DNA of 64,000 nucleotides from a virus, in IMG/VR virus record IMGVR_UViG_3300023174_002851, positions 1 through 64,000 of that record. One strand, 5' to 3'. The notes under the pieces are model-generated. The model made no database searches and was not told the DNA's origin. It worked only from the letters and a program-made list of their open reading frames with translations. Positions 44,897 through 58,215 of this stretch are shown here, piece after piece (the stretch's first letter is position 1; each line of letters begins with the position of its first letter). Position numbers and translations under genes: made by a program.

Positions 44897-46807
44897 ATGT
44901 CAAAGATCATCGGTATTGACCTCGGCACCACCAACTCATGCGTGGCTGTTATCGAGAACGGAAAATCCAAAGTTATTGAAAACGCAGAAGGTGCAAGAAC
45001 TACACCTAGTATCGTTGCCTACGCAAACGACGAAGTGTTAGTTGGTGCTTCAGCAAAGCGTCAAGCAGTAACAAATCCAAAGAACACCATCTACGCAAGT
45101 AAGCGTTTGATTGGTCGTAAGTTTAAAGAACAAGCAGTACAAAAAGACATTGACCTAATGCCATACGAAATCATGGAAGCCGCTAATGGTGACGCATGGG
45201 TACGAGCAGTAGGCAAAGAATTAGCACCACCACAAATTTCAGCAGAAGTCCTTCGCAAGATGAAGAAGACCGCTGAAGACTATTTGGGTCACGATGTAAC
45301 ACAGGCTGTTATCACAGTTCCCGCATACTTCAACGACAGCCAACGTCAAGCTACTAAAGATGCTGGACAAATTGCTGGACTAGAAGTCTTACGTATTATC
45401 AATGAACCAACTGCGGCTGCATTGGCCTACGGTGTAGACAAAGATGAAAAAGCAGATCGTAAGATTGCGGTATACGACTTAGGTGGTGGTACATTCGACG
45501 TTTCCATCATTGAGATTGCCAACGTAGATGGCGACAAGCAAATTGAAGTGCTGTCCACAAACGGCGACACATTCTTAGGCGGTGAAGACTTTGACCAACG
45601 CATTATGGATCACTTGGTTGACGAGTTCAAGAAAGAAAGCGGTGTTGACCTCAAGAAAGACATGCTTGCTCTACAGCGTTTGAAAGACTCTGCTGAAAAG
45701 GCTAAAATTGAGTTGTCAAGTTCAACTCAAACAGAAGTCAATTTACCATACATCACAGCAGATGCAAGCGGACCAAAACACCTTGTGGTAAAACTAACAC
45801 GTAGTAAATTGGAAAGTCTTGTTGACGAACTAGTTCAGCGTTCATTAGAGCCATGCCGCATTGCTTTGAAAGATGCAGGCGTGAGTGCCTCTGACATTGA
45901 CGAAGTTATCTTGGTTGGCGGTCAAACACGTATGCCTAAGGTACAAGAAGCAGTTGAGAAATTGTTCGGTAAAGCACCACGTAAAGATGTCAACCCAGAC
46001 GAAGCTGTTGCTGTCGGTGCTGCCATTCAAGGTGCTGTTCTAGGCGGTGATCGCAATGACGTTCTATTATTAGACGTTACCCCACTATCATTGGGCATTG
46101 AAACACTAGGCGGTGTGATGACCAAGTTGATCAAGAAGAACACCACAATCCCAACTAAGGCTAGCCAAACATTCTCTACAGCAGAAGACAATCAGCCAGC
46201 TGTAACTATCAAAGCGTTCCAAGGTGAGCGTGAGCTTGTGCAGTATAACAAGTTGCTTGGCGAATTCAATCTTGAAGGTATTGCTCCGGCACCACGTGGA
46301 TTGCCGCAAGTTGAAGTTACCTTTGACATTGACGCTAACGGTATCATGCATATCAGCGCCAAAGATAAAGCCACTGGCAAAGAAAACAAAATCACAATTA
46401 AATCCAATAGCGGTTTAAGTGATGAAGAAGTACAACGCATGATTCGTGAAGCAGAAGAAAATGCTGAAGCTGACAAAAAGGCTCGCGAATTGATCGATGC
46501 TAGAAATAGTGCAGACGCACAGTTGCACTCTTTCAAGAAAGATCTAGAAGAGTTTGGCGATCAGATCACTGAAGAACAAAAAGCTGAAATTGAAGGTGCT
46601 ATCAAATCAGTCGAAGAAGCAGTAAGCGGCAACGATGCTGAAAGAATCACTGAAGAATTGAATAAAGCATATCCAGCAATGAAAGCATTGTTAGACAGGC
46701 GTTCAGAAGCAGAAGCTGCTAAACAACAAGCCGATGCTCAGCCAGAAGCCAAAGTAGACGACAATGTTGTCGATGCTACATTTACTGAAACAAAAGAGTC
46801 TAAGTAA
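44897..46807 (+). CDS. dnaK: Chaperone DnaK (Hsp70)
   Basis: 636 residues, full length. ATPase [46 protein letters not shown]; linker [18 protein letters not shown]; substrate domain to [20 protein letters not shown]; helical lid and tail ending [15 protein letters not shown]. Folds or reactivates proteins in an ATP cycle; would need host DnaJ and GrpE, not seen here. Complete DnaK in phages is rare. Leader shares sequence with hsp20. Confidence 0.97.
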
Positions 46808-46808
46808 A

Positions 46809-46994
46809 ATGGCACACGAAGCTGGTAAAGGCAGTAAGCCTCGTCCTTTTAGCGTAAGTCAAAAAGAGTTCGATAACAGCTTTGAACGTATTTTTGGCAA
46901 CAAGAAAAAGACAGAGGCAGAAAGGTTCGACGACCAGGTCATTATGAAAGAAGAACATTATGATCTGGACGACGAAAAAAAGCAAGGTACCTAA
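46809..46994 (+). CDS. Small conserved phage protein
   Basis: 61 residues: MAHEAGKGSKPRPFSVSQKE then FDNSFERIFGNKKKTEAERF and an acidic tail. The HEAGKGxKxRP opening is common in short phage proteins of unknown role. One base after dnaK's stop, so co-transcribed. Confidence 0.72.
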   Translation: MAHEAGKGSKPRPFSVSQKEFDNSFERIFGNKKKTEAERFDDQVIMKEEHYDLDDEKKQGT

Positions 46995-47008
46995 ATGGGC
47001 TTTGCATC

Positions 47009-47043
47009 GAGCATAGTGCTCAATTGTTCTTACTTTTTAAGGA
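47009..47043 (+). promoter_or_regulatory. RNA-thermometer-like leader of hsp20
   Basis: GAGCA-TAG-TGCTC (47009-47021), identical to the dnaK leader hairpin core, then TTCTTA (47027-47032) able to pair with TAAGGA (47038-47043) over the ribosome site with loop CTTTT. Confidence 0.55.
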
Positions 47044-47050
47044 GACTTTT

Positions 47051-47491
47051 ATGAACAACATTACTATACAACGTATCGACGCTCTAAACAGAGCACTAAT
47101 TGGTTTTGATCAAATGTTTGACCAAATGGAACGCCGTTTTGCAAACAGTGTATCAAACAATTATCCTCCGCACAATGTACTCAGAACTAGTGAAAATCAA
47201 TATGAGATTCACATGGCTGTGACAGGCTTTGACAAGTCAGAAATTTCTGTACAAGTTGAACAGAATGTTCTTACAGTAACAGGTACTAGTGTTACTCCAA
47301 ACGAAAGCACAGAGATTGTTTACCTACATCGTGGGCTAGCAACTCGTGACTTTGCCAAAGAGTTTCCTCTTGCCGAACACATGGAAGTTACTGGCGCAGA
47401 GATCAAGAATGGCATGTTAGTTGTTAAACTAATCCGCAACATTCCTGAATCCGAAAAGGCCCGTATCATTGATGTGGTTGAGGTAAAATAA
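47051..47491 (+). CDS. Small heat-shock protein Hsp20
   Basis: 146 residues. Alpha-crystallin domain from about residue 33 (PPHNVLRTSENQYEIHMAVT) to ITGA-type AEIKNGMLVVKL; ends IPESEKARIIDV. Close to IbpA in layout. Holds unfolding proteins for refolding by DnaK, which is encoded just upstream. An earlier in-frame start (47024) lies in the leader hairpin and is rejected because ATG 47051 follows AAGGAGA. Confidence 0.93.
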   Translation: MNNITIQRIDALNRALIGFDQMFDQMERRFANSVSNNYPPHNVLRTSENQYEIHMAVTGFDKSEISVQVEQNVLTVTGTSVTPNESTEIVYLHRGLATRDFAKEFPLAEHMEVTGAEIKNGMLVVKLIRNIPESEKARIIDVVEVK

Positions 47492-47494
47492 TGT

Positions 47495-47516
47495 ATAGGG
47501 GGAGCAATCCCCCTAT
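47495..47516 (+). other. Strong hairpin between hsp20 and clpS
   Basis: ATAGGGGG-AGCAAT-CCCCCTAT, a perfect 8-bp stem followed by CTTAGATT and not a T-tract; may be an attenuator, RNA processing site or weak terminator. Confidence 0.55.
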
Positions 47517-47533
47517 CTTAGATTGGAGAAAAA

Positions 47534-47833
47534 ATGACAACAGACGTACAAATTGAAGAAAAAGTAAAAATTGCAATCCAACCTCCAAAGTTGTGGAAGG
47601 TAGTATTCTTTAACGATGACTCCACCCCGATGGATTTTGTTGTTGAACTATTGACTAGTATCTTTAAACACTCTGTTGAACGAGCCAAGGATCTTACATT
47701 AGAGATTCACAATACTGGCAGCGCAGTTGCAGGAATTTACTCTTTTGAAATTGCAGAACATAAAGCAGTAGAGTCGACACATTTGTCTAGAGCAAATGGT
47801 TTTCCTTTACGCATAACGGCAGAAGAAGAATGA
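47534..47833 (+). CDS. clpS: ClpS adaptor
   Basis: 99 residues. WKVVFFNDDSTPMDFVVELL (22-41) is the N-degron pocket and AVAGIYSFEIAEHKAVE the C-terminal strand-helix. ClpS delivers N-end-rule substrates to ClpAP and blocks other substrates. Phage copies may redirect host Clp protease; Clp also degrades tmRNA-tagged proteins. Confidence 0.92.
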   Translation: MTTDVQIEEKVKIAIQPPKLWKVVFFNDDSTPMDFVVELLTSIFKHSVERAKDLTLEIHNTGSAVAGIYSFEIAEHKAVESTHLSRANGFPLRITAEEE

Positions 47834-48375
47834 GTCTAAAAGATATTACTAGTGATCTGCATCACGAAGCAGAAACAACAACATTTGCCAAGATGTTGCT
47901 CAGTGGAAAGATTGAAAAACAAGATTACAGAAATTATCTGTATAACCTAATGGCAGTGTACGATCCAATCGAATGGTATTGCCAGCGCCAAGGCTTTCTA
48001 GTCGCAATGCCTGACTTACCTCGTCTACGTGCTATCCATGCAGATTTTTTAGAATTAGATGACGGAAGTTATTGTTATCTAACTCCAGCAACACTTGAGT
48101 ATCAAGCATACTTACATAAACTAGGCAACGATGAACACCGTAAACATCTTATTAAAGCGCATCTATACTGCCGCCATATGGGCGACCTATTCGGTGGTCA
48201 AATCATTAAAAAACAAGTAGCACACATCAGTAGTGGCAAGTTCTATGATTTTGAAAACGGCGATGCTATGAAAATGGCTATTCGTCAAACACTTACAGAT
48301 GACCTCGGAGACGAAGCTCGTGTAGCATTTGAGTATGCTATTAAAATGATGCGAGATTTGTATCGTGGAGAGTAA
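47830..48375 (+). CDS. Heme oxygenase
   Basis: 181 residues. Proximal heme ligand H11 in SDLHHEAE and the distal-helix motif HLYCRHMGDLFGGQ (111-124), where the usual GDLSGGQ has Phe for Ser. Opens heme to biliverdin, CO and Fe2+ using reduced ferredoxin. Overlaps clpS by 4 nt and the bilin reductase by 11 nt. With the reductase this is a ho-bilin reductase cassette like those in cyanophages and in alphaproteobacterial-type phage contigs. Confidence 0.9.
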   Translation: MSLKDITSDLHHEAETTTFAKMLLSGKIEKQDYRNYLYNLMAVYDPIEWYCQRQGFLVAMPDLPRLRAIHADFLELDDGSYCYLTPATLEYQAYLHKLGNDEHRKHLIKAHLYCRHMGDLFGGQIIKKQVAHISSGKFYDFENGDAMKMAIRQTLTDDLGDEARVAFEYAIKMMRDLYRGE

Positions 48376-49048
48376 TGTTTGGAACACGCTGATTGAGATC
48401 CAACAGCTTTTAGAAAGTAGTTTTGATGAAACAGGAACAGAAGTCTTTGAACCGGGTATGGATCGCTTTAATCAGCCTGGTTGGGTCAATCGTGTTTGGA
48501 CCAGTAGCAGTTATCGCAGGGCTCACGTTGATGTTGTGGATGCTAGGGAGACCAAAGGTCTCTGGATGATGCATTGTTGCATCTTTCCACATACACACAA
48601 TCCAGCACCAATTTACGGCTTTGACGTTATTGCCGGCAAGAACAAGATCACAGGTTGTTTTCACGATTATTCAAAAGCGGGTGATCCCGAACATCCTATG
48701 ATGCAGTGGTTTCATGATGAAGTTGCCAAACTAGAATGGCGTAAAGAGCGCAAGTTGCCAGAGTGGGCCACTAACATATTCAGCGGTAGTATGGTTGCTG
48801 CGGGCAATGTCAGCGATGAATCGGAATTAGAACAGATCACAGATCTAGCTCGAACTACCGTAGAACACTATCTAAGCACAGTAGCAGAAACCAACAATAC
48901 TGTAGCAGATACTACAGAAGCACAGAACTACTATTGTCTAAATCAAAAATGTAATCCGCATACACCCAGAGTTATGGTTAGTTTAGGGCTTTCTGAGGAA
49001 GATGTACAGCATTTTATACAAGAATGCCTGTTCCCTGAGATTCGATAA
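48365..49048 (+). CDS. Ferredoxin-dependent bilin reductase (PcyA/PcyX-like)
   Basis: 227 residues from a GTG codon; no in-frame ATG is available early. RRAHVDVVDARETKGLWMMH and CIFPHTHNPAPIYGFDVIAG then CFHDYSKAGD (D101 at the usual proton-donor Asp), with a C-terminal YYCLNQKCNPHTPRVMVSLG, follow the FDBR family pattern. Reduces biliverdin to a phycobilin such as phycoerythrobilin or phycocyanobilin; which isomer cannot be told. Directly downstream of heme oxygenase, its substrate source. I prefer the PcyX-like group known from phages, but PebS or PcyA types remain possible. Confidence 0.82.
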   Translation: MESNVWNTLIEIQQLLESSFDETGTEVFEPGMDRFNQPGWVNRVWTSSSYRRAHVDVVDARETKGLWMMHCCIFPHTHNPAPIYGFDVIAGKNKITGCFHDYSKAGDPEHPMMQWFHDEVAKLEWRKERKLPEWATNIFSGSMVAAGNVSDESELEQITDLARTTVEHYLSTVAETNNTVADTTEAQNYYCLNQKCNPHTPRVMVSLGLSEEDVQHFIQECLFPEIR

Positions 49049-49051
49049 ATA
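49044..49051 (+). promoter_or_regulatory. Late promoter
   Basis: GATAAATA, overlapping the bilin reductase stop and 7 nt before the ATG at 49059. Confidence 0.55.
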
Positions 49052-49058
49052 TTGTACT

Positions 49059-50447
49059 ATGAGAGCATTTGAATTACTAACTGAAGCTAAATTGCAGCCA
49101 GGCGAGCTATTTGTACCAAAACATCTAGATTGGCGCCCGCAAGCATTTTTACAAAAACTTAAAGACAGAACTCCGTTTGTTCAAAAAATTGGAGGCGAGG
49201 AATTTATTCCAGCACCAGGCGAATACAAGCGTCTTAAACCTGAAGTCGAAGCCGCTGTTAAAGCAAGATTAGAAAATCCTAGTGCATCTGTTCCAAGTTT
49301 TATTATCAAGACTGATAAGGGTGATATACCGTTGAGCCAGTTTGAAAAAGCAGATTTGCAAACTTCTAAAGGCCAAGCAACAACCACTGTCAATGTACAA
49401 CCGATAGGTATTGGCGTTGCAGCCGATGCTGTAGATAAAGATGTTGATGTTGAAACAGAAATTAAACAGGCAATAGCTAACAATAAAGCTATCCAAGGTG
49501 CTAACTTACATAAAATAATTTTAGATAATCAAATATTGGATCAAGCAGGGCCGCTGGGCGTTGCTATTAAAAAAGCAACATCTGATATCGTTGCAGGACA
49601 GTCCCCAATAGTTAAAACATATGATAAAAAAACACAATCAGTTATAGCTATCGATGCAGGAGAATACCTAGGTATACTACAAATGGTTCATAACACAGCT
49701 AATTTTCCAAAAAAAGATGCGTTTATGAAATTTTTAGAAACTAATAATCTAGATAACATGATGGTTATTTTTCCAGGATCTCAGAACAGTCAATTACAAG
49801 ATAGTTACGGTGTTCAAAATACTGCAACTGGGCATAGCATTATGATTAGCAGTAAGGGTGGAGTTGGTAGTACCGCTGTTGGCGCTGCCCCCGCACTAAG
49901 CGGTTTAAAAGTTCCTGATTCGTTAGTCAAGAAACGCAAACCCGGGAACGGCATTGACTTTATTCTAACAATGCAAGGATTATCTGTAAAACAACAACCA
50001 TTTGCAGGAATGAATTTTTTACACAGATTTTATCCTGATTCAGTTCCTGACATGTACAAAAAAATATTGCCGTTTACCTTTGAAGATATGCAAATAATCT
50101 TAGATAACATATCAGGTAAGGGCGGAAATTTGCCTGCAAAATATAACAAAATACTCCAAAGTAGAAACGTTAAAGCAAGGGCTCGTGCAGGCGGCATACT
50201 ATTTTATGCTACTGCAAAAGATCTAGTTGAGGTATTTAATAATCTTCAACCGGTTCCTGATTTTAGACAAACTGTACTAGAAATTTTAGATATGAATTTT
50301 GTACAGATATTTTCAAGAGTTGTCGGCGGCAATTTAAATGCAGATGTATTATGGCCCGGCAAAGTTGACGGCAATGTCCTACTATGGACCAAAGCCGAAG
50401 CAGCTAATCCTTCAAGTGCAGGATTTAGCTTTAAAGTGGTAGACTAA
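49059..50447 (+). CDS. Large phage protein with possible capsid-targeting start
   Basis: 462 residues from MRAFELLTEAKLQPG. The opening resembles T4 internal-protein targeting peptides with an L-x-E/A cleavage site (LTE-A). The body is soluble alpha/beta (IKTDKGDIPLSQFEKADLQT, VIFPGSQNSQLQDSYG, SIMISSKGGVGSTAVGAAPA), function unknown; the GG-rich VGSTAVG is not a Walker motif. The late promoter placement supports ATG 49059 over the in-frame start at 49002. Confidence 0.6.
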   Translation: MRAFELLTEAKLQPGELFVPKHLDWRPQAFLQKLKDRTPFVQKIGGEEFIPAPGEYKRLKPEVEAAVKARLENPSASVPSFIIKTDKGDIPLSQFEKADLQTSKGQATTTVNVQPIGIGVAADAVDKDVDVETEIKQAIANNKAIQGANLHKIILDNQILDQAGPLGVAIKKATSDIVAGQSPIVKTYDKKTQSVIAIDAGEYLGILQMVHNTANFPKKDAFMKFLETNNLDNMMVIFPGSQNSQLQDSYGVQNTATGHSIMISSKGGVGSTAVGAAPALSGLKVPDSLVKKRKPGNGIDFILTMQGLSVKQQPFAGMNFLHRFYPDSVPDMYKKILPFTFEDMQIILDNISGKGGNLPAKYNKILQSRNVKARARAGGILFYATAKDLVEVFNNLQPVPDFRQTVLEILDMNFVQIFSRVVGGNLNADVLWPGKVDGNVLLWTKAEAANPSSAGFSFKVVD

Positions 50448-50479: not shown

Positions 50480-50487
50480 TCTAAATA
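50480..50487 (+). promoter_or_regulatory. Late promoter of the curli locus
   Basis: TCTAAATA, 29 nt before the csgF-like ATG. The leader has a CGGGTATTACCG hairpin and GGGAGCG ribosome site. Confidence 0.55.
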
Positions 50488-50516: not shown

Positions 50517-50999
50517 ATGAAAAAAACCATAGCGTCCATTGGGGTGATGCTTATTGTCACCTCCGCTAGTGCAGCGGAATTACAGCACTCTTTTAACAGT
50601 CCTAGTTTCTCCGGATCTGGTTACAGTTCACATGTTCTAACTATCAAACAGTTAGAAGATCAACAGAAAGAAAAAAATCAAGCTAAAATTGATTCAGAAA
50701 AGGCCAAAGCATTGCAAGATGCTGCCAACACTCCAACTGCAAGATTCCTATCTAACCTAGAATCAAGAGTCTATGCGCAGTTGGCAAAACAACTTACAGA
50801 TTCCATGTTTGGCGAAGGTGCATCATGCACTACAGCAGGAGTAGTATGCGGCACAATTCCAGACTTAGGTGGTAACTCTGTTACTTGGAAACTTGGTGCT
50901 GGCAGCGACACAGGCATGATTATTATTACAATTGTAAACAACAGTAACTCTAGCCAAATAACAACAATGAAAGTACCGACTGGTACATTTGCGTTCTAA
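50517..50999 (+). CDS. CsgF-like curli assembly protein
   Basis: 160 residues. Signal peptide MKKTIASIGVMLIVTSASA. Mature start ELQHSFNSPSFSGSGYSSHV corresponds to the CsgF N-terminus (FxNPxFGGN) that plugs into the CsgG pore; then a helix RFLSNLESRVYAQLAKQL and a C-terminal beta part ending TMKVPTGTFAF. CsgF couples curlin secretion to surface anchoring. First gene of the locus; the csgG-like gene follows 11 nt later. Confidence 0.82.
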   Translation: MKKTIASIGVMLIVTSASAAELQHSFNSPSFSGSGYSSHVLTIKQLEDQQKEKNQAKIDSEKAKALQDAANTPTARFLSNLESRVYAQLAKQLTDSMFGEGASCTTAGVVCGTIPDLGGNSVTWKLGAGSDTGMIIITIVNNSNSSQITTMKVPTGTFAF

Positions 51000-51010
51000 G
51001 GATAACAAAA

Positions 51011-52234
51011 ATGAAAAATACAATTATATCCTTGGCAGTAGTGGCCTTACTAGGCGGATGTGCTACAGGATCAGCGTTACGTGAAAAGATGACAGGCAAT
51101 CAATTTGACGAGCCAGTTATAGAACAAAGTAAATTTTTAAAGAAAGACAAGAATAAACTAGCACCTCCAGCAAGTGGTCCGATTCCTGTAGCAGTGTATG
51201 GCTTTACAGATAAGACTGGACAGCGTAAGAGCATGCCAAACATTGCCAGTTTGAGTTCAGCAGTTACACAGGGTGCAGAAAGTTATCTAATCAAGGCTCT
51301 ACAAGATGCAGGCGATCAGCGTTGGTTCACTGTACTTGAGCGTGTAGGCCTAGACAATCTAATTAAAGAACGTCAGATGATTCGTCAGATGCGTGAACAG
51401 TATCAAGGCCGTGAAGCCAAGCCATTACCTCCTATGATATTTGCAGGAATTATTATGGAAGGTGGTATTGTTGGTTATGATTCAAACACACTAACAGGCG
51501 GCAGTGGTGTAAGAATTTTTGGTATTGGTGCAAGTACTCAATATCAATCAGACACAGTGACAGTAACACTACGAACAGTAAGTGTAAGCACAGGAGAAAT
51601 CCTAACTTCAGTAACTGTAACCAAAACCGTGTTGAGCTATATGGACAAAATGACATTGTTGCGTTTTGTCGGTGATGGCACAACAGTGGGCGCCAACGCC
51701 ACAGCACTAGAAGGCGAAATTGGTGGAAGCATAAACGAAAGCATCAACAAGGCTATCGATATTGCTGTTCAGGCAGCAGTAATAAACACTATCCAAGAAG
51801 GTGCAAGAAAAGGTCATTGGGCATTTAAGTCAGACGTTGTCCAATCTTATCCAGCACCGGTGATTGCTGTTCCTGTCAAGGAAGAGCCAAAGATAGAAGA
51901 AAAGAAAGAAGAAGTTAAAGTAGAGGAGAAGAAAGATGTCGTGGTTCAACCACAAGCCAAATCCGAAACGAAAACAGAAGCCGCACCCAGTGCCGCCGCA
52001 GAAGTAAAGAAAGAAGAACCAAAAAACCCAGTAGCACTATTTGATCCTAGGTTTTTAAAACAAGATTCTTTTATCTATAAAGAAGCAAATGAAAATAGTC
52101 AACGAACTTGGCAATTTAAAAAGGGCACTGAATTAAAAATAATTACTCCTGGACCCGAAGGTTGGCATTATGTATCGGACTCCAAGAACCAGAAAGGTTT
52201 TGTCAAACAGGATGTACTGACTGACAAACCTTAA
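51011..52234 (+). CDS. CsgG-like outer-membrane secretion channel
   Basis: 407 residues. Lipoprotein signal with lipobox LGGC (C17). The CsgG domain spans about 55-280: VAVYGFTDKTGQRK, RWFTVLERVGLDNLIKERQM, IIMEGGIVGYDSNT, FGIGASTQYQSDTVTVTLRT, VSTGEILTSVTVTKTVLSY and EGEIGGSINESINKAID. E. coli CsgG (262 residues) forms a nonameric pore exporting curlin. An extra Lys/Glu/Val linker (about 290-330) and an SH3-like C-terminal domain (WQFKKGTELKIITPGPEGWH) are additions to the E. coli layout. Confidence 0.93.
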   Translation: MKNTIISLAVVALLGGCATGSALREKMTGNQFDEPVIEQSKFLKKDKNKLAPPASGPIPVAVYGFTDKTGQRKSMPNIASLSSAVTQGAESYLIKALQDAGDQRWFTVLERVGLDNLIKERQMIRQMREQYQGREAKPLPPMIFAGIIMEGGIVGYDSNTLTGGSGVRIFGIGASTQYQSDTVTVTLRTVSVSTGEILTSVTVTKTVLSYMDKMTLLRFVGDGTTVGANATALEGEIGGSINESINKAIDIAVQAAVINTIQEGARKGHWAFKSDVVQSYPAPVIAVPVKEEPKIEEKKEEVKVEEKKDVVVQPQAKSETKTEAAPSAAAEVKKEEPKNPVALFDPRFLKQDSFIYKEANENSQRTWQFKKGTELKIITPGPEGWHYVSDSKNQKGFVKQDVLTDKP

Positions 52235-52436
52235 AGTGTTAAATTTTTGACGGTGTTGGAAATCTAACATGTTGAAAATTTAACAGCGGCATTTAATTTG
52301 TAGGCATAACAAATTAAATAAAATTACAAGCATTAAATCTACTCGAGGGGGATAGTAGATAGAGAAGTAGTCTAATAACTATAGGTCAAAGACCAAGGAA
52401 CTTGTCGGCGAATAATAAACCGACATTAAATCAAGG
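52235..52436 (+). promoter_or_regulatory. Structured leader of the curlin gene
   Basis: No gene in these 202 nt. It has AATTTGT/AACAAATT (near 52296-52312), ATTAAATA late octamer (52313-52320), TCTACT...AGTAGA (near 52337-52358) and TGTCGG...CCGACA (near 52403-52425) hairpins. Possibly post-transcriptional control of the amyloid subunit. Confidence 0.5.
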
Positions 52437-53234
52437 ATGAAAAAAAGTATGAAAGGCTCTGGTAAGTTGTCGAGAAAATTACTTACAAGTCTGGTGTTGT
52501 CTGGAATGGCAGCACTGGGAACCAGTGTTCATGCTCAGGCGTTGAATACTAACTCAGCAAATTCAACCGGCCCAAACACTGTTTATATCGAACAGTTGGG
52601 TTCTAGCAACGTGGTAATCATAGAACAAGTTGGTGGTAGTAACAAGGTTGGCGGTACTGCTAATACCACTCCGAGCGACACAAATTATGCGACTATAAAT
52701 GGAAGCTCCAATGCTGTTACGCTGACGCAAACTGGCGACGGTAACTTGAGTCAATATCTTATCAAGGGTAACAACAACATTTATACCAGTACAATTTTAG
52801 GCACAAGCAACACAAGTACATTGACTATGGGCAATCAAAATACCAATACTCTACGTTCAACTGTAACTGAAACTATCACAGGTAGCAATAACACTGTGAT
52901 ACAAAATGTTGTTGGCAATGACATTACCAGTCTATTAAATATCACTGGTAACTACAATGAAGTTACTAAAAATTTATTGAGCACCAATGGCAACAGTAAT
53001 GTGTCTATCACTGGTAGCAATAACAAAGTAGATGCACAGCAAATAGATTCTGCAGGTGCAGGTGGTCATCAATTGATTCAGACTACTGTTGGTGATTATA
53101 ACAGTATTGTGACACAACAACAAGGAACCAATGATACAACTGTAAACATTGCCACTAACGGCAGTCATAATGCTATTACTGTAAGAACTAGTAGCAGCGC
53201 AATTGTATTACCAGTAACTGCATTAGCGAGATAA
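52437..53234 (+). CDS. Curlin-repeat amyloid subunit (CsgA/CsgB-like)
   Basis: 265 residues. Signal peptide up to about residue 35 (GMAALGTSVHAQ). Repeats of curlin pattern, N-x-V-x-(I/L)-x-Q-x-G-x-x-N: NTVYIEQLGSSNVVIIEQVG, NAVTLTQTGDGNLSQY, NVSITGSNNKV, NSIVTQQQGTNDTTVN. Such repeats stack as beta-solenoid amyloid. First ATG (52437) is drawn; ATG 52449 is also possible. The ribosome site is weak (CAAGG), so the structured leader may matter. Confidence 0.85.
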   Translation: MKKSMKGSGKLSRKLLTSLVLSGMAALGTSVHAQALNTNSANSTGPNTVYIEQLGSSNVVIIEQVGGSNKVGGTANTTPSDTNYATINGSSNAVTLTQTGDGNLSQYLIKGNNNIYTSTILGTSNTSTLTMGNQNTNTLRSTVTETITGSNNTVIQNVVGNDITSLLNITGNYNEVTKNLLSTNGNSNVSITGSNNKVDAQQIDSAGAGGHQLIQTTVGDYNSIVTQQQGTNDTTVNIATNGSHNAITVRTSSSAIVLPVTALAR

Positions 53235-53236
53235 TC

Positions 53237-54334
53237 ATGCGTGGTTTTACTGTTGCTCTATTCCTGTTGTTATCTGCTAACAGTTGGGCAGGAATAGGTA
53301 CTGTAACAGATGTTAAAGGTACTGCTTGCTCCATTGAAAGAAACAAGACAAAACTCAATGGAGCAAAAGGTGCTGAGATAGAAAGTATGGATGCTTATGT
53401 TACTGGTTCGTGTGTTAGTAACATAACATTCAAAGATGACACCAAAGTCAAAGTAACAGAAAACAGTCGTCTACTTATAGATGACTTTGTGTATGATCCA
53501 AAGAAAAGTGACGCAGGAAAACTTGCGCTCAAAGTAGGTATGGGGTCTGTTCGCTATGCTAGCGGACAGATTGCCAAAAACAATCCCCAACAAGTAGATA
53601 TCAAAACTCCTACAGCCACAATCGCTGTTCGTGGAACAGACTTCAACATGGTTGTTGACGAAACAGGACAGAGTCTCGTTATCCTATTACCTAGTTGCAA
53701 GGATGATACAGAAGTTAAACAATACGAACTTGAAGAAAATAAATGCAAGGTGGGAAAAATTGAAGTTAGCACACTTGCCGGTTCTGTAACACTGGAAGAA
53801 GCATTTGCAGGCACCTATGTTTTTTCAGCAAATACATTGCCTACACCTCCTAGAGTTATCAATATTGTAGAAAGTAATATTGGTAATCAATTACTGTTGG
53901 CACATCCAAAAGAAGTTAGACAGGCTATTCGAGAAGCTACTGGTCGAGATCAAGACGAAAGAAAACAACAACAGCAAGAATTAGACATAGCTAGAGATCA
54001 AGCCAATAATCGAGGCGGACAAGGTATGAGCGGCAAGGATGCAGAACTATTAAAATCGTCCAAGGATGCAGGTGCTGTTTGTAATCCTTCTGCTACCATC
54101 TGTGTAAATTGGGAAAGAACCGACACCCCAGATTTACAGATGCGCGGCCGCGGGGTTGCGTATAGAACACAGCCAGGCGATCACTATGCCGAAGTTAAAA
54201 CACAGGGATATAGTAGTAACACAATAGTAACAGTTACACAAAATGATAGTCCTAGTACAGAAATATTAGGAGACGGCAGTCCAGGAGGTAACATTGTTGT
54301 TATAACACAGAGTTTGGGGATTAGAAGACGATGA
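53237..54334 (+). CDS. FecR-domain protein with curlin-like tail
   Basis: 365 residues. Signal peptide MRGFTVALFLLLSANSWAG. FecR domain: GTVTDVKGTACSIERNKTKL, FKDDTKVKVTENSRLLIDDF, VRYASGQIA, VDIKTPTATIAVRGTDFNMV. A Gln/Arg linker follows and the last ~40 residues have curlin-type strands (NTIVTVTQNDSPSTEI, NIVVITQSLG). Periplasmic; FecR modules sense surface or envelope states. The fused tail suggests that it nucleates on, or senses, the amyloid encoded upstream. Confidence 0.85.
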   Translation: MRGFTVALFLLLSANSWAGIGTVTDVKGTACSIERNKTKLNGAKGAEIESMDAYVTGSCVSNITFKDDTKVKVTENSRLLIDDFVYDPKKSDAGKLALKVGMGSVRYASGQIAKNNPQQVDIKTPTATIAVRGTDFNMVVDETGQSLVILLPSCKDDTEVKQYELEENKCKVGKIEVSTLAGSVTLEEAFAGTYVFSANTLPTPPRVINIVESNIGNQLLLAHPKEVRQAIREATGRDQDERKQQQQELDIARDQANNRGGQGMSGKDAELLKSSKDAGAVCNPSATICVNWERTDTPDLQMRGRGVAYRTQPGDHYAEVKTQGYSSNTIVTVTQNDSPSTEILGDGSPGGNIVVITQSLGIRRR

Positions 54335-56013
54335 AACGTTTTATATTACTATTCTCTTTTTTAATTACATTTTGTTTAAGCGCACACAGCCAAGCCACTG
54401 GCCTTGCTGATTTAAAATTTGGTCGCTACCAAATCGCTGACAGTCAATGGAACGTTAGTGCGTGTATGTACACAGCCACCTGTCAAATCTACAGTAAGAA
54501 TCCTGGAACAGCGTATAAAATTCCTTGGACCAGCGGGCAAATACAATGGGACACAGGTGACTATATTGGATTTATGGACAATTCAAACAAGGATGCCAAC
54601 AATCCGTGGTTGGCCGTACAATATGGTAGCAATGGTGTTGCCAAAACAAATATGGGTACTGGACATATTATCAATATGGGTACAAACTATTTCTTCTTTG
54701 TGGGTAATGATAACAATACCGGACAGTTGTTTAGTATGACACAGGGCTTTGCTAATACTAGTGGTGTCACTTGGACTGGAACATTGAATCCTACGGTTAC
54801 ACAAGTAAACAACTATGCTACGAATGGATCAACTACACCATTGGCAGCAGGTCAGACAGCCGCGCCAGCTGGGCCACCGCCTCCTGCTCCGACTGCCATT
54901 TACATGAACAATGCTACTGTAAAAATTACAAGAGCAATTCCAACAACTAGTAACAGTCCAAACGGCGAAGGTCCTAACAATGCGTTTGATAATAGTCCGT
55001 ATACCAAATACTTGAACTTTGATAAAAAGAATGCAGGTGTTACTGTTCAACTAAATTCAGGTAGAGCAGTTACAGGATTTACAGTTACTACAGCTAATGA
55101 CTTTAGTGGCCGTGATCCTACAAGCTATAAACTTTATGGTAGCAATGATGGTTCAACTTGGACACTGATTAAAGAAAATGCCATCACGCTAAGTGATAAT
55201 CGCTATACAACCAGTGCAGTAGTTGACGTTGCTAACACTACAGCATATACCTATTACTTTATGTTGTTTCCAACTACCAAAGCAGGCGACGGTTGCGGAT
55301 TGGACTGTAACAGTATGCAGATTGCCGAACTAACATATTACTACGATGCTAACAGCACAGCAACATCAACCGCTTCAAGCTCTACTATTGTTGACCCTGT
55401 GACAGCGGCTAACACTCCTGCATTGTGTTGTGGCGGATCTGCGGCACCATTTAATGCTAGTGCTACTAATACTGCAAAAGTTATGTCTTTTGTAAATCGC
55501 ACTACACAAGACAGTCAAGTGTACATCACACAGATAGGTAATCAAAATACTATAATGGTCAACCAAAGCGGCACAAAGAATAACTATTTTTCCTACGACG
55601 GTAACGGTTCTAATAATACTATTACCGCCACTCAAACTGGAACCGCTGCCACGCAGGCAAACTACATTGATCTCACAGTCAACGGTAGCAGTAATAATGT
55701 AAATATATTACAGCAAAGCACAGGTGGCACTAAGGGAGCATTTGTAAATATACAAGACAGTAACAACAGTCTAATATTACAGCAAAAAGATTCTGGAAGC
55801 CATTATGCAGATGTAAGTCTTATAGGTGGCGGCAAGAACGTTGATATATTACAACAAGGATCAGCTAGTCATATGGCTAAAATAGCACTAACTGGATTAC
55901 CGGTTGATTTAAGTTTAACACAAACTGGATCGACTCAGAACTTTTATAGCATAAACTTCAATTGTGCTACTGTAGGCGGCTGTGCAAAAATAACGGTGCA
56001 ACAAGGACAATGA
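54331..56013 (+). CDS. Discoidin-domain protein with curlin repeats
   Basis: 560 residues. Signal peptide (FILLFSFLITFCLSAHSQA). About residues 20-160 form an unassigned domain (LKFGRYQIADSQWNVSACMY). A Pro-rich linker (AAPAGPPPPAPTAIY) leads to an F5/8 type C-like discoidin domain (about 205-340: NAFDNSPYTKYLNFDK, DPTSYKLYGSNDGSTWTLI). The C-terminal third carries curlin repeats (VYITQIGNQNTIMVNQSG, NNTITATQTGTAATQ, NNVNILQQSTGG). Looks like a carbohydrate-binding tip or anchor for the fibre. Overlaps both neighbours by 4 nt. Confidence 0.8.
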   Translation: MKRFILLFSFLITFCLSAHSQATGLADLKFGRYQIADSQWNVSACMYTATCQIYSKNPGTAYKIPWTSGQIQWDTGDYIGFMDNSNKDANNPWLAVQYGSNGVAKTNMGTGHIINMGTNYFFFVGNDNNTGQLFSMTQGFANTSGVTWTGTLNPTVTQVNNYATNGSTTPLAAGQTAAPAGPPPPAPTAIYMNNATVKITRAIPTTSNSPNGEGPNNAFDNSPYTKYLNFDKKNAGVTVQLNSGRAVTGFTVTTANDFSGRDPTSYKLYGSNDGSTWTLIKENAITLSDNRYTTSAVVDVANTTAYTYYFMLFPTTKAGDGCGLDCNSMQIAELTYYYDANSTATSTASSSTIVDPVTAANTPALCCGGSAAPFNASATNTAKVMSFVNRTTQDSQVYITQIGNQNTIMVNQSGTKNNYFSYDGNGSNNTITATQTGTAATQANYIDLTVNGSSNNVNILQQSTGGTKGAFVNIQDSNNSLILQQKDSGSHYADVSLIGGGKNVDILQQGSASHMAKIALTGLPVDLSLTQTGSTQNFYSINFNCATVGGCAKITVQQGQ

Positions 56014-56165
56014 TTCCGCTGAGCATTCCGCCCGTCTGCCTAGTACCTAACTGTCAAAATGGGCGTCAAATCCTTTCAAAAGAAGGCGGTAGTACACGTT
56101 ATATGCTTACGTGCCGCAGCCATCACTCAGGTTTAATTCCAAAAAAGACAACAAAAACAGCATAA
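56010..56165 (+). CDS. 51-residue Cys/His protein
   Basis: MIPLSIPPVCLVPNCQNGRQ, then ILSKEGGSTRYMLTCRSHHS: Cys-x4-Cys...Cys-x2-His-His could bind one zinc. Starts within the previous stop (ATGA). Its last codons contain the next late promoter. Small zinc proteins of this type are common in phages. Confidence 0.6.
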   Translation: MIPLSIPPVCLVPNCQNGRQILSKEGGSTRYMLTCRSHHSGLIPKKTTKTA

Positions 56166-56168
56166 ATA
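56161..56168 (+). promoter_or_regulatory. Late promoter of the cyclase
   Basis: CATAAATA, 4 nt before the ATG at 56173; leaderless arrangement. Confidence 0.55.
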
Positions 56169-56172
56169 TTTC

Positions 56173-58215
56173 ATGCTGAAAAAAATCCTAACTAGTCCTT
56201 GGACTGCCCTAATTACGTTGGCACTTATTTTAAGTATAAGAATTGCCGATCCTGTCTTTGTAGAAAGTGTAAGATTACGCTACTTTGACACACTAATAAC
56301 TTCTAAAGAACCTACTGCCAATAACATCTATACTGTAAACATAGATGAATCAGCATTAGACAAATACGGCCAATGGCCGCTACCAAGGGCAGAATATGCA
56401 AAAATTATTAAAGATCTTTATGCTCGCGGTGCTGGCCTTGTTGTGCTCAATGTTATCATGGCTGAGTCTGATCGTACTGGCGGAGATGCTACTCTTGCCG
56501 CAGCTCTTAAAAATAATCCCGTAGTACTGCCTAGTGCTCCTAGTCAAAAAACAAAGAACACACCGCGTGTTCCTGGTAGTGCAGTATTAGGTCCAGAGTG
56601 GTTAGATCAAATAGTCACTTATCCTGGACTGATAGCCAACATTCCCCAATTAGAAAATAATGCTGTAGGTGTAGGCATTATCAGTACTTTACCTGAAGTT
56701 GACGGTGTCAATCGTCGATTACCGCTAATAGCAGCGATAGACGGCAAATTATATCCTAGCATAGCTATGGAAACGCTGAGGGTAGCTGCCGGTGATTCAA
56801 CATTTCAGGTAAAACTATTTGAAGGTGGCGTTGAGAAAATGCGCATACCTAAATTTGGTCCTGTAACAACAGACAACCTAGGTCGTGTTTGGATTGATTG
56901 GAGTCAAGAAAACAAGCAGGTAAGCCTTATGGACTTGCCCAAGAACTTTAATGGTGCTATAGTTATAGTAGGTCCTACCGCTGCTGGTATTAGTAATCCT
57001 GTGCCAACTGCCCGAGGTGCTGTATTCCCACAAGATGTGCAGGCTGCTGCAATTAGCACTATGATCAATGGAGTGGTTATTCAACGTCCTGACTGGGCAG
57101 ATGGCGCAGAGATATTGTTATTTTTAGCCGCAGGTATTTTATTATTATTTTTGACAAGGTGGACTTATGTTGGTATTGGGGCAGGTATTGTTATCATTGG
57201 CGCTGTTGTACCTTTATGTGGATACGCATATAGCAGTAGCTCGTGGCTTGTGGACGCGACTCTTCCGGTCGGCGGCCTTGTTTTGGTTATGCTTCATGCT
57301 TATGGTGTCAAGTTTGTAAGTGAGTTCTTACAGAAGCAGGCAATCAAGAAACAGTTTGCTGGCTATTGCTCTAAGGAAGTTGTAGAGCTACTACAAAAAG
57401 ATCCAGACCTAATCAAGCGTGGTGTACGTAAAGACGTATCAGTTATGTTCAGTGACTTGCGCGGCTTTACTCCTATTGGTGAACACTATGGTGATGACGT
57501 CGCTGGACTAGGCAAGTACATGAACGGCTACATGGATGCTATCAGTCAGCCGATGCTGGACAACAAAGGTATGGTTATCAAGTATGTAGGTGATGCAAGT
57601 ATGCACATACATGGCGCACCTATTGAAGATCCTAACCACGCACGAACAATCGTTGCTGTTGGACTACAGATGTTAGATGCTGTAGACGAGTACACTAAGA
57701 TAATGGAAGTACAAGGCCTACCCCCTGCCGCGATGGGTTGGGGTTGTAATACTGGTATTGGCTTTATTGGCGAGATGGGATCAACTGAACGACACAGCTA
57801 TGACATCTTGGGTGATATGGTTTCAACTGCGGCACGACTAGAAGCACGTTGTAAAGCCTATGGCGTACTATGCATTATTGGTGCTGAAACATACAACCGT
57901 ACTAAAGATGATTTCTTCTATTTGTTGCTAGACAACTTACAACCAAAAGGTAAAACTGTTGCTGATTTGATTTATACAGCACTACGCACAAAAGGTGCTG
58001 ATTACAGTAAAGAACTTGAAACACATAACAAGATGCATGCCTTGTACAAAGAGAAGCAGTTTGATGCCGCAGCCATCCTTTGTGGAGAACTAAAGGGCAA
58101 GTTTGGTGGACAGATGGACAAATATTACAAGATGTGGATCGAACGCTGTGCATTTATGAAACAGCAAGATCTAGGCGATAACTGGAACGGTGAATTTGTA
58201 GCACACGAAAAGTAA
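56173..58215 (+). CDS. CHASE2-domain class III nucleotidyl cyclase
   Basis: 680 residues. One N-terminal membrane segment, periplasmic CHASE2 sensor with its hallmark VNIDESALDKYGQWPLPR (near 55-72), three membrane segments (about 315-400) and a cytoplasmic cyclase domain. FSDLRGFTPIGEHYGDDV (near 425) and KYVGDASM (near 470) carry the metal Asp residues; SYDILGDMVSTAARLEAR (near 542-560) holds the purine and transition-state region. Makes cAMP or cGMP; specificity not certain. FecR plus CHASE2-cyclase is a known bacterial gene pairing. Complete, with no frameshift. Confidence 0.93.
   Translation: MLKKILTSPWTALITLALILSIRIADPVFVESVRLRYFDTLITSKEPTANNIYTVNIDESALDKYGQWPLPRAEYAKIIKDLYARGAGLVVLNVIMAESDRTGGDATLAAALKNNPVVLPSAPSQKTKNTPRVPGSAVLGPEWLDQIVTYPGLIANIPQLENNAVGVGIISTLPEVDGVNRRLPLIAAIDGKLYPSIAMETLRVAAGDSTFQVKLFEGGVEKMRIPKFGPVTTDNLGRVWIDWSQENKQVSLMDLPKNFNGAIVIVGPTAAGISNPVPTARGAVFPQDVQAAAISTMINGVVIQRPDWADGAEILLFLAAGILLLFLTRWTYVGIGAGIVIIGAVVPLCGYAYSSSSWLVDATLPVGGLVLVMLHAYGVKFVSEFLQKQAIKKQFAGYCSKEVVELLQKDPDLIKRGVRKDVSVMFSDLRGFTPIGEHYGDDVAGLGKYMNGYMDAISQPMLDNKGMVIKYVGDASMHIHGAPIEDPNHARTIVAVGLQMLDAVDEYTKIMEVQGLPPAAMGWGCNTGIGFIGEMGSTERHSYDILGDMVSTAARLEARCKAYGVLCIIGAETYNRTKDDFFYLLLDNLQPKGKTVADLIYTALRTKGADYSKELETHNKMHALYKEKQFDAAAILCGELKGKFGGQMDKYYKMWIERCAFMKQQDLGDNWNGEFVAHEK

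Follow-up and report, generated by a model that had tools for sequence, protein, structure and literature searches.

A predicted curli operon (type VIII secretion) in a large-genome T4-like phage and its lectin-headed curlin protein

Curli operons of phages have been described in three papers on marine phages that appeared from 2020 to 2022, and their purpose has been debated in print since 2020. The csgF and csgG genes were reported from pelagimyophages, with the operon absent from freshwater fonsimyophages, and sibling capture was proposed as a function (PMC7029224). For the Methylophilales phage Melnitz, where csgA and csgB were held to be missing, a lysis-related pore was proposed instead (PMC9004378). 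Curlin subunits, FecR and the cyclase were subsequently identified in podo- and myo-pelagiphages, with superinfection defence and aggregation as suggested roles (PMC9599517). The gene order csgF-csgG-curlin-FecR-second curlin-cyclase of Pelagibacter phage HTVC008M is also that of the locus described here, and Melnitz displays the same order. Because of these gene orders and the proposals of the three papers, the main idea of a phage-encoded curli system is not new. A reading of the present locus made from sequence only had guessed that the amyloid holds progeny near cells, joins cells or blocks other phages, and these guesses were already in print for the marine relatives (PMC7029224, PMC9599517).

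Genes of the operon

The window, i.e., the whole stretch of DNA that was analysed, consists of 64,000 bases out of a 70,800-base IMG/VR virus record. The operon occupies positions 50,517-58,215 and has six long intact open reading frames on the + strand. The sequence-only reading had assigned six consecutive same-strand genes to this region, and the reading frames and Pfam families agree with its assignments. The features are:

50517..50999, + strand: csgF, 160 aa; signal peptide by inspection; PF10614 at 6.6e-9, over the cut-off; phrog_35372 at 1.6e-34
51011..52234, + strand: csgG, 407 aa; lipobox Cys17; PF03783 at 9e-48; CsgG domain at aa 52-270, then a Glu/Lys-rich linker and a weak SH3-like tail at aa 354-403 (SH3_4, 0.016)
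52437..53234, + strand: curlin-repeat subunit, 265 aa; long signal-peptide-like N-terminus
53237..54334, + strand: FecR-domain exported protein, 365 aa; PF04773 at 1.3e-9
54331..56013, + strand: lectin-headed curlin protein (disc), 560 aa; PF00754 (F5/8 type C) at 2.5e-11; N-terminal domain at aa 22-180, discoidin/CBM32 at aa 199-340, curlin tail at aa 384-558
56010..56165, + strand: small Cys/His-rich open reading frame, 51 aa; matched only in loci L011-L013, at 63%
56173..58215, + strand: CHASE2 class III nucleotidyl cyclase, 680 aa; CHASE2 at 9e-40, Guanylate_cyc at 3.5e-14

The fecR and disc reading frames overlap by 4 nt. The small reading frame, earlier described as a zinc-type gene, is present but is not a core member of the operon, since it is found in one group of relatives only. 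The sequence-only reading had seen export signals on the proteins that would need them, and by inspection a signal-peptide-like start is present in each of the six main proteins except the cyclase. The lipobox Cys17 of CsgG is invariant in an alignment of 20 sequences, and the CsgG family profile matches the E. coli CsgG structures at about 3e-67. Thus the Pfam family, the structure-profile match and the lipobox Cys identify an outer-membrane pore lipoprotein of the curli type, and the PF10614 match identifies its CsgF accessory protein. The linker and SH3-like tail are found on CsgG in only part of the lineage; that the tail binds peptidoglycan is only a guess. A search of eight virus records, which are possibly fragments, found no CsgE gate (PF10627). 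This counts against a displayed amyloid; CsgE is reported not to be essential (PMC7029224).

As a single sequence the curlin gene falls under the Pfam cut-off (E 0.0054). The family profile, however, hits a solved curlin structure, 8c50 (1.2e-6), and the G..N.h.h motif is seen 6 times in the protein, with 0.8 expected. The identification as a curlin-repeat fibre subunit holds on these grounds. An AF2 model of the subunit is all-beta (pLDDT 78, pTM 0.72), though a Foldseek search with it gave no confident match, which also counts against a displayed amyloid.

The FecR protein had been described as having a curlin-like tail. What can be seen is no more than a single degenerate repeat with an invariant Gln at its end; neither a Pfam hit nor the motif is present. 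Classical FecR is a sigma regulator. The protein has a signal-peptide-like start and inspection reveals no cytoplasmic part, so a role like that of classical FecR is unlikely. Its weak NCBIfam matches are to Leptospira surface proteins. In the cyclase alignment the metal Asp residues D428 and D474, the substrate Lys K470 and the Arg R555 are kept. Where a transition-state Asn is usual there is mostly Ser, another point counted against a displayed amyloid. The cyclase catalytic domains are of two types (VSTAAR and VNLAS), which are swapped among otherwise similar CHASE2 proteins. FecR and the CHASE2 cyclase may form a sensing pair. The two genes adjoin in Polaromonas. A general bacterial FecR-CHASE2 pairing was considered but found no support in Burkholderiales, as the upstream gene tested there is mostly that of an FHA protein.

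Spread, selection and assembly

A scan with CsgG found 53 viral loci, most of them with the whole operon. A curlin scan then gave 76 newly fetched IMG/VR loci, some with short flanks and several on contigs that overlap the CsgG-scan set. Both csgF and csgG are present in 76/76 of these, FecR in 70, a match to the second curlin protein in 74 and the cyclase in 41. Curlin-type subunits are found in every curlin or csgG locus examined that has enough flank. The search of phage and metagenome contigs that had been suggested as a check thus finds the locus widely present in related phages. All operon genes are under strong purifying selection, with a median dN/dS per gene of 0.065-0.113 in close pairs. 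In the CsgG tree, the proteins of the window lineage form a branch separate from the HTVC008M and Melnitz CsgGs with a support of 100/99. Bacterial genomes gave no match in a first scan that had the CsgG of the window as its sole query. Some metagenome-assembled genome contigs with the full operon (e.g., L070, L071 and L074) perhaps come from phages and were binned with bacteria.

Two concerns that accompanied the sequence-only reading, a chimeric join and a host-like composition, bear on whether the operon belongs to the phage at all. A 353-kb T4-like jumbo-phage contig has most of the window genes in similar order across about 50 kb, and its operon has the same neighbours on either side. Among the proteins encoded on this contig are a major capsid protein of the Gp23 type and a terminase that shares 53% identity with the terminase of jumbo phage PA5oct. 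The GC content is 38-43% throughout the region and phage-like. Apart from the existence of bacterial curli operons, nothing was found in favour of host DNA misassigned to a phage, or of a chimera, and such an origin is improbable in the extreme in view of the shared neighbours, the dozens of loci, the phage-like GC and the supported CsgG clade. A chimeric assembly in particular is ruled out by the neighbours in the 353-kb contig together with the csgF and csgG genes of the curlin-scan loci. We have high confidence in the gene families and their conservation: the operon is real and conserved in phages. There is good support for a phage-coded type VIII secretion system that includes amyloid-type subunits of its own, from the CsgG, CsgF and curlin families, their spread and the lack of a join.

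Control elements and neighbouring genes

Candidate control elements and a possible accessory cassette are as follows:

44897..47833, + strand: possible accessory cassette of DnaK (44897-46807), Hsp20 (47024-47491) and ClpS (47534-47833)
50480..50487, + strand: late-type promoter octamer TCTAAATA, 29 nt upstream of csgF
52237..52285, + strand: hairpin between csgG and the curlin gene; intergenic fold z -4.3, with compensatory changes in relatives
52313..52320, + strand: octamer ATTAAATA, conserved in several relatives; the curlin start follows about 116 nt downstream
52384..52425, + strand: curlin leader with two short stem-loops around AAGGA, read by eye from the alignment

Late-phage octamers had been proposed upstream of csgF, the curlin gene and the cyclase. 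At csgF the proposal stands: of 38 distinct loci, 21 have an octamer of the [ACT]TAAATA type within 100 nt upstream of the gene, at 19-42 nt in 21/21. Within the same distance this octamer type is found upstream of csgG in 0/36 and of disc in 0/32 loci, and almost never upstream of fecR. This distribution fits one conserved late-type promoter, and such a promoter at csgF is plausible. The curlin octamer is conserved but distant from its gene, and the cyclase octamer, which ends 4 nt ahead of the ATG, is too close to be a promoter for that start. Across the window NATAAATA occurs 11 times on the + strand and 0 times on the - strand; the bias is weak evidence, because most window genes are on the + strand.

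The hairpin after csgG could allow the pore and the subunit to be made in different amounts. Tandem TGTT-N8-AACA sites before the curlin gene were also considered as an operator, but their window-wide count does not exceed chance, and an RNA hairpin fits better because of the covariation. In the curlin leader, a stem-loop apparently lies between AAGGA and the start codon, perhaps drawing both together.

The DnaK-Hsp20-ClpS cassette, a set of phage-coded genes for protein quality control, precedes the operon in most loci that have a full flank. The DnaK is full-length (999 bits, above the NCBIfam cut-off). The organisms listed for its matches include neither a Pelagibacter phage nor a Methylophilales phage. 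In E. coli, DnaK promotes curli formation and keeps CsgA and CsgB translocation-competent (PMC6123696). A dedicated curli chaperone is suggestive only, as csgG is missing within 10 kb at 19/42 DnaK loci with a full flank; thus the link between DnaK and curli is not specific.

Several other genes of the window should be mentioned. A heme oxygenase and then a ferredoxin-dependent bilin reductase are encoded at 47830-49048, and among phages the reductase is best matched in Pelagibacter phage Mosig (51%). Directly upstream of csgF, at 49002-50447, is a 481-aa gene without a known family; a 30% relative is also found upstream of csgF in locus L048. A permuted (two-piece) tmRNA gene at 32973-33438 matches the permuted and betaproteobacterial tmRNA models of Rfam, a weak hint of a betaproteobacterial host.

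Exchangeable heads, possible roles and known systems

The second curlin protein was expected to combine a discoidin domain with curlin repeats. This is borne out by the PF00754 match, the fold and a C-terminal curlin region that is conserved among the relatives as far as HTVC008M and Melnitz. An AF2 model (mean pLDDT 72, pTM 0.37) displays the discoidin head and a tail of repetitive beta structure, and in Foldseek the head matches galactose-binding CBM32 structures. The N-terminal part varies among relatives and consists of discoidin/CBM32, PA14 or unnamed domains. The HTVC008M protein has the curlin tail as in the window but a PA14 head, and that of Melnitz has no Pfam-named head domain. A few of the proteins are without a head, possibly because of broken frames. 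When the head classes, assigned by small profiles built in this analysis, are placed on a CsgG tree of 55 loci, 28 changes are required, with a minimum possible of 9 and with 36 for shuffled labels. Thus the heads are partly inherited and often replaced. Near sisters may differ in the head, as do L210 and L213, and L272 and L281.

The exchange of heads bears on a reading in which CsgG and CsgF form a gated channel of the outer membrane that serves to time lysis or take up nutrients, and fibres are beside the point. A structural argument was made for such a pore in Melnitz (PMC9004378), and the gating may differ where CsgE is not found. However, this reading is improbable given that subunits of the curlin type accompany the pore wherever the flank suffices, are under purifying selection and have their heads exchanged. 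The swaps of predicted sugar-binding heads, which include the cultured HTVC008M, favour surface binding over a bare pore. Chances are about even that the head sets the specificity of the amyloid and is traded between phages like tail-fibre tips. If so, phages evolve what the surfaces of their victims stick to, besides what virions stick to.

Our preferred reading is a curli operon of a large-genome T4-like phage by which the infected cell probably displays a lectin-bearing amyloid. During infection, probably late, the host would make CsgG/CsgF pores in its outer membrane, through which the two kinds of curlin protein would be exported. The plain subunit would polymerise into amyloid. The subunit with the predicted sugar-binding head and a like curlin tail may enter or nucleate the fibre and set its binding specificity. 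FecR, itself exported, and the CHASE2 cyclase may signal the state of the envelope or of the fibre to the cytoplasm. The most likely outcome would be a lectin-bearing amyloid on the infected cell, binding neighbouring cells or surface sugars. This reading is favoured because of the CsgG, CsgF and curlin families, the constant presence of csgF and csgG in the curlin-scan loci, the low dN/dS, the csgF octamer, the hairpin, the CBM32-like head and the exchange of heads on a conserved tail. Melnitz cultures showed no aggregation (PMC9004378), which counts against it. Confidence in the displayed amyloid is moderate, and in any particular benefit low. The lectin heads do not pick among holding progeny, joining cells and blocking other phages.

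It is possible, though doubtful, that the lectin-bearing amyloid instead coats the infected cell as a shield that blocks adsorption of rival phages and does not join cells. Superinfection defence was proposed for pelagiphages (PMC9599517), and exchangeable sugar-binding heads would track shifting surface glycans; the results here, however, do not separate a shield from cell capture.

With the E. coli csgBAC/csgDEFG system the window shares CsgG, CsgF and curlin-repeat subunits, whereas FecR, the lectin-headed curlin and the CHASE2 cyclase are additions, all placed in a single operon. Melnitz has a related cyclase (47%) and a CsgG about 40% identical to that of the window. The pelagiphage type VIII module differs in that the window CsgG lies in a clade separate from it, some CsgGs of the window lineage carry the linker and SH3-like tail, the operon travels with large T4-like genomes, and the gene directly upstream has no histidine-kinase family match in Pfam. 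The words PA14, adhesin, lectin, carbohydrate, jumbo and DnaK are all absent from PMC9599517. No paper describing the exchangeable-head curlin protein was found in searches of an open library of published papers, and both this feature and the distinct CsgG lineage appear to be undescribed. New here are thus the separate CsgG clade in large-genome T4-like phages with its linker and SH3-like tail in some members, the exchangeable head of the second curlin, the DnaK-Hsp20-ClpS genes usually just upstream and the covarying hairpin between csgG and the curlin gene. The curli trait is thereby extended past the phages of SAR11 and OM43 to large-genome T4-like phages.
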